A stretch of 64,000 nt of DNA from Ahrensia sp. (GTDB lineage: Bacteria > Pseudomonadota > Alphaproteobacteria > Rhizobiales > Rhizobiaceae). Positions 16,340 through 50,482 of this stretch are shown here, piece after piece. Location of the stretch: NCBI GenBank assembly GCA_002706335.1, contig PAKZ01000039.1, positions 62,001-126,000 of the forward strand, written 5' to 3'. Within the stretch, counting starts at the first letter, position 1; the number at the start of each line of letters is the position of its first letter. The translations under genes and the position numbers were made by a program. A model generated the notes under the pieces. The model did not search any database, was not told where the DNA came from, and saw nothing but the letters and a program-made list of their open reading frames with translations.

Positions 16340-16474
16340 CGCCAAGCAGTAGCGTGCGATCAGGGGATCGCCAAGACTCGTTTGAAACATGGCTCGTTTG
16401 AGCCAGGGATCGTTTGACCGCTTTGAATGTTGACCTCTTGAAGTGAGCGCGACGGGCTTCTACAAGGGGCTTGC

Positions 16475-16558
16475 TCTAACGGGGTGCTGCGCATGCAGCT
16501 GAGAGGCGAAAGCTAACCCGTCGAACCTGATCCGGTTTGCACCGGCGTAGGGATTAGA
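16475..16558 (+). promoter_or_regulatory. TPP riboswitch (THI element) upstream of thiB
   Basis: Conserved TPP aptamer blocks in order: GGGGTGC (16481-16487), GCTGAGA (16498-16504), AACCTGATC (16524-16532) and GCGTAGGGA (16545-16553). The P1 ends TCTAA (16475-16479) and TTAGA (16554-16558) pair. The aptamer ends 62 nt before the thiB start, in which no clear intrinsic terminator is seen, so control is probably at translation or by Rho. Confidence 0.95.
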
Positions 16559-16620
16559 CGTCATTTTCCGGTTCCACGGACTACGCGCCTCTATCCCGAT
16601 CTGAACGAAGGAGGTGCGTC

Positions 16621-50092: not shown

Positions 50093-50386
50093 ATGTCTCG
50101 CGCATGCGAATTGACCGGCAAGGCAGTCCAGTCCGGCAACAATGTGAGCCACGCCAACAACAAGACCCGGCGCCGGTTCCTTCCCAATCTCTGCCACGTC
50201 ACGCTGATGTCCGAGGCGCTCGGCCAGAGCTACCGTTTCAAGGTTTCTGCTTCGGCGCTGCGCACGGTCGAGCATCGCGGCGGCCTCGACGCCTTCCTCG
50301 CCAAGGCGAAGGAAACCGAACTGTCGCAGCGCGCCCGTCTGCTGAAGCGTCAGATCGCCAAGAAATCCGCTGGCCAGGCCGCCTGA
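50093..50386 (+). CDS. rpmB: 50S ribosomal protein L28
   Basis: 97 residues, the alphaproteobacterial long form: [37 protein letters not shown] and [25 protein letters not shown] precedes the ATG at 50093. It has its own promoter (49950) and terminator (50415). Confidence 0.97.
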
Positions 50387-50414: not shown

Positions 50415-50437
50415 CAGGCCGGTTCGCCGGCCTGTTT
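50415..50437 (+). terminator. Intrinsic terminator of rpmB
   Basis: CAGGCCGG (50415-50422), UUCG tetraloop, CCGGCCTG (50427-50434), then TTTCGTTT. A perfect 8-bp stem with a stable loop, 28 bp after the stop. Confidence 0.9.
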
Positions 50438-50452
50438 CGTTTGGCACTCCAA

Positions 50453-50482
50453 CTGGTGGCATCACCCAGGATAAAAAAATGC
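50453..50482 (+). promoter_or_regulatory. Probable preQ1-I riboswitch on the queuosine-precursor transporter gene
   Basis: P1 is CTGG (50453-50456) with CCAG (50466-50469). The loop holds GCAT and ends CAC just before the 3' strand; the C there (50465) is at the position that recognises preQ1 in known class I aptamers. The 3' strand is followed by an A-rich tail (GATAAAAAAA). The loop GCAT (50459-50462) can pair with ATGC (50479-50482), making the expected pseudoknot directly on the start codon. ACCC-x3-ATAAAAAA matches the Bacillus aptamer, as recalled. Fold checked by eye only. Confidence 0.75.

Follow-up and report, generated by a model that had tools for sequence, protein, structure and literature searches.

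Type III of the class I preQ1 (preQ1-I) riboswitches was reportedly defined by McCown et al. in 2014. A crystallised example is carried by Escherichia coli yhhQ (PDB 8fza) and represses a reporter 6.1-fold with preQ1; according to the same article, type III is almost exclusively gammaproteobacterial (PMC10622847). The initial annotation of the locus studied here had placed the class mainly in Firmicutes and some other Proteobacteria. In the E. coli RNA, changes to the closing G-C pair, U6, C14 or A27 abolish or cripple binding; U7 and C8 build the side and the ceiling of the pocket, with U7 also holding A27 in place, and the closing G-C pair is invariant in the class (PMC10622847). The gene it precedes is needed in E. 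coli to salvage both precursors, preQ0 and preQ1 (PMC5372724), and riboswitches that act by direct occlusion typically have the ribosome-binding site in P2 (PMC10907184).

Here we describe an element on a yhhQ gene of an Ahrensia sp., found in a 64,000-nt stretch of contig PAKZ01000039.1 (the window, meaning the whole stretch that was analysed). The analysis confirmed a 30-nt element at 50453-50482, located on the yhhQ start codon. It is very probably a translational, type III-like preQ1-I riboswitch in which the start codon itself forms P2 and which exerts feedback on uptake. The assignment draws on conservation, covariation, position, the gene concerned and the sequence relation to the E. 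coli riboswitch; from these we infer the ligand, the off direction and the occlusion of the start codon. No alphaproteobacterial or start-codon preQ1-I riboswitch was found in the available text of PMC10622847, PMC11625349, PMC3766115, PMC5372724, PMC12519234 and PMC10907184, a coverage that leaves subscription journals mostly aside.

Anatomy of the element and its surroundings

The element reads CTGG-T-GGCAT-CAC-CCAG-GATAAAAAA-ATGC (Table 1). P1, the CAC preceding its 3' strand, the A-rich tail and the GCAT/ATGC complementarity all lie where the initial annotation had put them, and its reading of the gene as a predicted preQ0/preQ1 importer was borne out; the open reading frame scored 94.4 bits against TIGR00697 (cutoff 50.95) and matched PF02592, and it stayed below the cutoff of NF008406. 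The putative terminator hairpin stands between rpmB and the element and ends 18 nt 5' of it; counted with the T-rich stretch, which reaches 50442, it leaves ten nucleotides in front of the element. An rpmB match was present within the examined stretch of 101 of 102 positive loci (defined below).

Two Rfam hits near the element were treated as chance, both far below the gathering score: STnc390 (E 0.095), which overlaps the rpmB terminator hairpin, and ST7-OT3_4 (E 0.79), on the minus strand over the element. Elsewhere in the window, a TPP riboswitch was detected at 16470-16570 (RF00059, 70.9 bits).

Table 1. Positions in the window of the element's parts and of the neighbouring features.
Feature	Position	Strand	Remark
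P1 5' strand, CUGG	50453..50456	+	pairs with 50466-50469
L1, U5 (invariant) and G6	50457..50458	+	U5 opposite E. coli U6, placed by eye
P2 5' strand, GCAU (anti-start-codon)	50459..50462	+	loop base 7 and the base that follows AUG covary
L2, CAC	50463..50465	+	C50465 placed against the E. coli ligand-specificity cytosine
P1 3' strand, CCAG	50466..50469	+	sequence and structure test
Putative Shine-Dalgarno, AGGA	50468..50471	+	7 nt before AUG; half within P1 3' strand
Linker and A-rich L3, GAUAAAAAA	50470..50478	+	A tract kept in all 24 distinct ungapped 30-mers
P2 3' strand, AUGC (start codon and first base of codon 2)	50479..50482	+	
yhhQ, queuosine precursor (preQ0/preQ1) transporter, 213 aa	50479..51120	+	TIGR00697, PF02592 (Vut_1)
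rpmB (ribosomal protein L28), upstream neighbour	50093..50386	+	TIGR00009, PF00830
Terminator-like hairpin, CAGGCCGG-TTCG-CCGGCCTG, then T-rich stretch	50415..50442	+	read from sequence

Relation to described preQ1 riboswitches

Comparison with the E. coli riboswitch was made by eye; alignments misplaced P1. Both RNAs belong to the same gene, take the form of an H-type pseudoknot and overlap the translation start region, and they have in common the U after P1, the specificity C and the A-rich L3. The closest resemblance is to the UC-type loop, one of three rhizobial loop variants (below), in which the 9-nt loop is identical but for one base (UUCCCUCAC in E. coli, UUCCAUCAC in rhizobia). Taken together with the tails, AAGG in E. 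coli and AAUG here, the two differ by one compensatory pair; the middle C of CCU is exchanged for A and its partner G for U, so that CCU/AGG at the Shine-Dalgarno corresponds to CAU/AUG at the start codon. This near-identity to a crystallised riboswitch on the same gene upheld the proposed link to class I preQ1 aptamers. Counterparts of the E. coli closing G-C pair, U6, C14 and A27, again placed by eye, were kept in all 24 distinct 30-mers from the family, as were the closing pair in the element's own numbering (G4-C14) and A21-A26 (24/24 each). The specificity-position C lay directly 5' of the P1 3' strand in 150 of the 150 matches listed from the family search.

The two RNAs also differ. The rhizobial P2 3' strand consists of AUG and the next base, in contrast to the Shine-Dalgarno AGG of type III, P1 has 4 bp where 5 are read in E. 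coli, and a linker of usually 3 nt precedes the A tract. In loops of the window's type, G6 and G7 stand where type III has U7 and C8, which are kept only in the UC variant, and P2 gains a fourth pair that reaches into codon 2. UU after the P1 5' strand and a pyrimidine-rich loop, the rule for type III, were seen in the UC loops (69) but not in the GG (68) or GC (13) loops among the 150 matches listed. In addition, the element was found in the window's alphaproteobacterial family. With type II of the class (Thermoanaerobacter tengcongensis, Bacillus subtilis) it shares the AC before the P1 3' strand, which is a rule for type III as well and is present in the window and in 129 of the 150 matches listed (CC in 13, UC in 8); the T. 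tengcongensis loop is longer than that of E. coli, and so than most seen here, and the P2 partner here is AUG.

By its fold, the element would be expected to fall under the Rfam PreQ1 model, RF00522, which the initial annotation had proposed as a check. That check came back empty: there was no match in the window or in the organism's own genome, in the latter even at E<=10. The model likewise gave no match on the crystallised E. coli leader, and none at the gathering score on four rhizobial and two other type III-like leaders (L007, L061, L150, L151, L175, L196); at E<=10 it returned matches in 14 of 14 control genomes including E. coli, over the cut-off in 1. Because the E. coli member also goes unmatched, the silence of RF00522 says little about type III. 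When leaders were inspected in E. coli and at the 30 best matches to YhhQ in the phylum's other classes, an E. coli-type leader, GGGUUCCCU..ACCCC with AAAAAGG or a close variant, was present in 28 of these 31 loci (27 by regular expression, L184 by eye) and absent from L191, L192 and L204.

Loop variants covary with the first base of codon 2

Bases were counted in the 150 matches listed when 394 genomes from the window's family were searched at a tolerance of up to 3 mismatches. Three loop variants were distinguished among them: U-GG-CAU (68), U-GC-CAU (13) and U-UC-CAU (69). The base after AUG was C in all 68 GG loops, where it pairs with G at loop base 7, and G in all 13 GC loops, where it pairs with C; in the 69 UC loops it was A 39 times, C 20 times, T 10 times and never G. 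The lack of G is notable because G follows ATG in 31 of 82 long open reading frames, a crude background taken from all frames of the window. Fisher tests of loop against next base gave p values of 3e-21 and 2e-15, which ignore relatedness.

To place these variants on a phylogeny, a YhhQ protein tree was built from 102 leaders and 5 outgroup rows; L045 and L048, which represent the same places as L001 and L020, had been dropped from 104 positive loci. This was a quick tree with 29 open forks, and the outgroup did not fall on one side of a branch. Loop state changed 9 times on it. Across the 38 GG leaders the base after AUG changed 0 times and codon-2 positions 2 and 3 changed 15 times each, so that in these leaders C stays fixed although the encoded residue differs (CTG, CAG, CCC, CGT and others); across the 50 UC leaders the three positions of codon 2 changed 18, 14 and 21 times, and across the 14 GC leaders 0, 1 and 4 times. 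Two pairs of loci with identical proteins and contigs of equal length, each apparently one genome present in two collections (L012/L087 and L061/L159), were kept; without them the GG and GC leaders number 37 and 13. An independent-pairs test had 2 pairs when restricted to starred branches and 4-5 when every branch was counted, too few for significance; none ran in the opposite direction.

Structure was assessed on 24 distinct ungapped 30-mers, the ungapped 30-nt length being that of 93 of the 102 leaders. The pseudoknot paired 92.7% of cells, against 25-47% for slid versions, each helix contained one pair with changes on both sides, and the covariation score exceeded 499 of 500 shuffles; a +3 slide of five pairs had slightly higher covariation (0.051 against 0.043). 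Further pair types did not rise above the shuffles, 482 of 500 of which were as high. Folding without pseudoknots was unremarkable for the window sequence (z 0.66); MFE folding cannot model a pseudoknot. Loop bases 6 and 12 also look coupled; U6 goes with A12 except in one listed row, and G6 with A, C or U.

These data support the pseudoknot on the start codon that the initial annotation had described: the sequence is conserved, and both P1 and the helix between loop and start codon show covariation. The covariation among orthologues that it had named as a check was present in part. In P1 it was contributed within the family by one genome, L150, in which CTAG/CTAG replaces CTGG/CCAG upstream of yhhQ and the G-C next to the loop is kept, and at loop base 7 it extends to the base after AUG. 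CAT and ATG, on the other hand, were present in all 150 matches listed, and because this core is invariant within the family sequences counted, it covaries only against E. coli and its like. In the 102/104-locus set these letters are fixed by the way the loci were picked, since the regular expression requires CAT and ATG.

Start codon and Shine-Dalgarno as P2 partners

The P2 partner was AAUG, and not the AAGG of a Shine-Dalgarno, in all 150 matches listed, and the motif AUG was in frame with yhhQ in 96 of the 102 non-duplicate leaders. Out-of-frame AUGs were seen in one genus, g434, in 6 of the 7 species examined (L151-L156). Here the start codon appears to have shifted downstream: AGGA has been lost from the linker (CCAGCC or CCAGCU), the CCAU/AUGG pairing is retained, and the in-frame start (ATG; GTG in L156, by reading) lies 13-16 nt 3' of the motif's A. 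Given this distance, the UGGA within the motif is well placed as a Shine-Dalgarno, and judging from the leaders it probably serves as one in g434. The seventh species, L157, has an ambiguous start because its AUG is in frame but a GTG follows 15 nt on. That the pairing is kept where AUG is not the start codon argues that the helix, and not only the codon, is under selection. The genus looks like a state between Shine-Dalgarno-based and start-codon-based occlusion.

We consider it fairly likely that the start-codon-based aptamer constitutes a new preQ1-I subtype. Its P2 would comprise AUG and the nucleotide that opens codon 2, and a single compensatory exchange of a base pair (CCU/AGG, CAU/AUG) would separate it from type III; the fourth pair would have been exchanged several times (G-C, C-G, none), and in one genus a Shine-Dalgarno would again be hidden. 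As P2 would then include the first base of codon 2, RNA structure would dictate that nucleotide. The GG pocket of the window may have an altered ligand preference.

Distribution of the element

Genomes were searched with the pattern CTGGTNNCATNNCCCAGGNTAAAAAAATG at up to 3 mismatches, with the reversed pattern as control. In the order, 19 of 397 genomes matched, each with one copy, the window's own genome included; all 19 belonged to the window's family, which contributed 21 genomes to the search, and 0 of 376 genomes from other families matched. The family was taken, from named loci, to be Rhizobiaceae in the wide GTDB sense. The two negative family genomes in this search, of 1.5-1.6 Mb, were both of one genus. 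Within the family, the pattern was found in 337 of 394 genomes and in 94 of 109 genera. The reversed control produced no match in either the order (397 genomes) or the family search (394 genomes). Adjacency to yhhQ was established among the pattern matches for the 36 loci fetched (19 from the order search, 17 from the family search), and held in 36 of 36. One genome, G937, had two copies of the element (G937:C30 and G937:C32).

Among the best 80 named yhhQ loci, of 575 candidates, the element was present in 45 (44 by regular expression, L067 by eye), including Nitratireductor, Mesorhizobium, Chelativorans, Aquamicrobium, Phyllobacterium, Brucella/Ochrobactrum, Hoeflea, Agrobacterium, Neorhizobium, Martelella and others, as well as metagenome-assembled genomes (MAGs) that bear the labels Rhodobacteraceae (L078) and Bauldia (L125). 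The remaining 35 of the best 80 were without it; they included Devosia, Roseibium, Stappia, Cohaesibacter, Amorphus and Ancylobacter, along with three MAGs that carry the label Rhizobiaceae group (L055, L066, L068).

Four of the 57 family genomes without a match were inspected (G007, G009, G010, G011). G007 (L022) had been missed by the family search only for a one-base insertion in L2, which recurs in L101, L119 and L120, and G009 and G010 (L167, L168) have kept yhhQ without the element. In G011, a 1.1-Mb genome (L169), a truncated remnant, CGCTGGTGCTCAAAAAATG, sits on yhhQ at about 1095-1114; this reduced genome has apparently lost the P1 3' strand by deletion. Orthologues that keep the transporter and lose the pairing, which the initial annotation had named as evidence against a riboswitch, therefore do occur, in 3 genomes inside the family and in those inspected outside it.

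Two wider searches returned candidates that were set aside. A UC-type start-codon pattern, blind to the GG and GC variants, gave 10 matches in 349 genomes of the phylum, 9 in the family and 1 outside it (G1334); the latter precedes a recombinase-like open reading frame, by reading of the sequence, rather than yhhQ, and was treated as chance, the reversed control also having 1 match (G1077). A covariance model, R1, run with strict filters and 25 candidates scored per genome, gave matches at E<=0.05 in 83 of 289 genomes of the class. Only the organism's own genome scored high (51.9 bits); the others reached at most 25 bits, the best two (L136, L132) lay inside open reading frames, and these matches were treated as chance.

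A different element on Devosia-group yhhQ leaders

Leaders of yhhQ in the Devosia group carry a different, two-stem element, about 15-50 nt before the likely yhhQ start. It was recognised in L008, L054, L064, L073, L075, L082, L083, L085, L105, L114 and L117, with variants in L080, L108 and L111 and looser forms in L053 and L110. The outer stem shows compensatory changes (GCTGC/GCAGT, GCAGC/GCTGC, CTCGC/GCGAG, GCCGC/GCGGC) and encloses a conserved hairpin, CGGUCUNNUGCCG. Its covariation score was above 500 of 500 shuffles (11 sequences), no Rfam match at the gathering score was obtained in the 8 loci scanned, and a model of it matched 2 of 199 genomes of the order, both of one genus. This element is a candidate for a second kind of yhhQ regulatory RNA.

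Proposed mechanism and competing explanations

When preQ1 (or preQ0) is plentiful, the ligand would stack between P1 (CUGG/CCAG) and P2 (GCAU/AUGC), where it would be read by C50465 and U50457. With the pseudoknot closed, P2 would conceal the AUG and P1 would conceal part of the AGGA Shine-Dalgarno, and for this reason, we propose, the importer YhhQ would not be made. When ligand is scarce, the short helices would open and the 30S subunit could bind. Among the points in favour of this reading, the organism's own genome has a Tgt match (53% identity) and QueF (TIGR03139, 149.7 bits, cutoff 86.9).

The alternative that survives best, which we regard as unlikely, is that an RNA of the same shape does a different job in its GG form: it would sense another ligand (preQ0 preferentially, for example, or another 7-deazapurine), or it would be a constitutive pseudoknot that tunes translation. 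In GG variants the E. coli pocket bases U7 and C8 are indeed G6 and G7, and a fourth P2 pair is possible. In the organism's own genome an E. coli QueC query found nothing, in a search run without a positive control, and PF06508 gave partial matches only, of which two passed the family cut-off and the strongest fell in a QatC-like protein. In the absence of a clear QueC match, the organism may rely on preQ0 taken up from outside, and imported preQ0 may then be the signal. Against a change of ligand or of function, all variants retain the specificity C, U5, the closing G-C and the A tract, and GG and UC variants occur on the same gene and interchange on the tree. The QatC-like protein itself (L174, 751-2124, contig C33 of the same genome) recalls the Qat anti-phage system and scored 108 bits against NF041925 (cutoff 280).

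In place of a pseudoknot, the ribosome-binding site could form a simple bulged hairpin (GGUG/CACC), which is the centroid fold of the window sequence. We hold it to be very improbable; among the 24 distinct sequences, its pair 5-12 is broken in 6 and its pair 6-11 in 15, its covariation score lies below the shuffled mean, and the double change in L150 fits register 3-15, not 3-14.

We attach scarcely any credence to the idea that the element is an operator in the DNA, bound by a protein that regulates yhhQ, with the inverted repeats as half-sites, as might be suggested by the near-palindromic CTGGTGGCATCACCCAG and the high conservation of primary sequence. Two interleaved inverted repeats are locked to the start codon, the loop covaries with the first base of codon 2, the A tract and the 9-nt loop match a crystallised RNA, and the genome contains the pattern just once when up to 3 mismatches are allowed. 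That helices of only 4 bp each arose around a start codon by chance is refuted by their presence in 94 of 109 family genera and 0 of 376 genomes of other families in the order, and the probability left to it is negligible.

Implications for the family

If the preferred reading of a type III-like riboswitch with the start codon in P2 is true, preQ1-I riboswitches extend to most of an alphaproteobacterial family that takes in rhizobia, agrobacteria and relatives of Brucella, and where they escape the standard Rfam model. The element would also be a riboswitch aptamer one strand of which is formed by the start codon and not by the ribosome-binding site. Riboswitches in mRNAs that lack a Shine-Dalgarno have been named a future challenge in a review (PMC11625349); the present element, by comparison, probably still has a Shine-Dalgarno, yet it pairs the AUG itself. 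The preferred reading would further point to an evolutionary route that links occlusion of the Shine-Dalgarno with that of the start codon, and codon choice would be tied to RNA structure.
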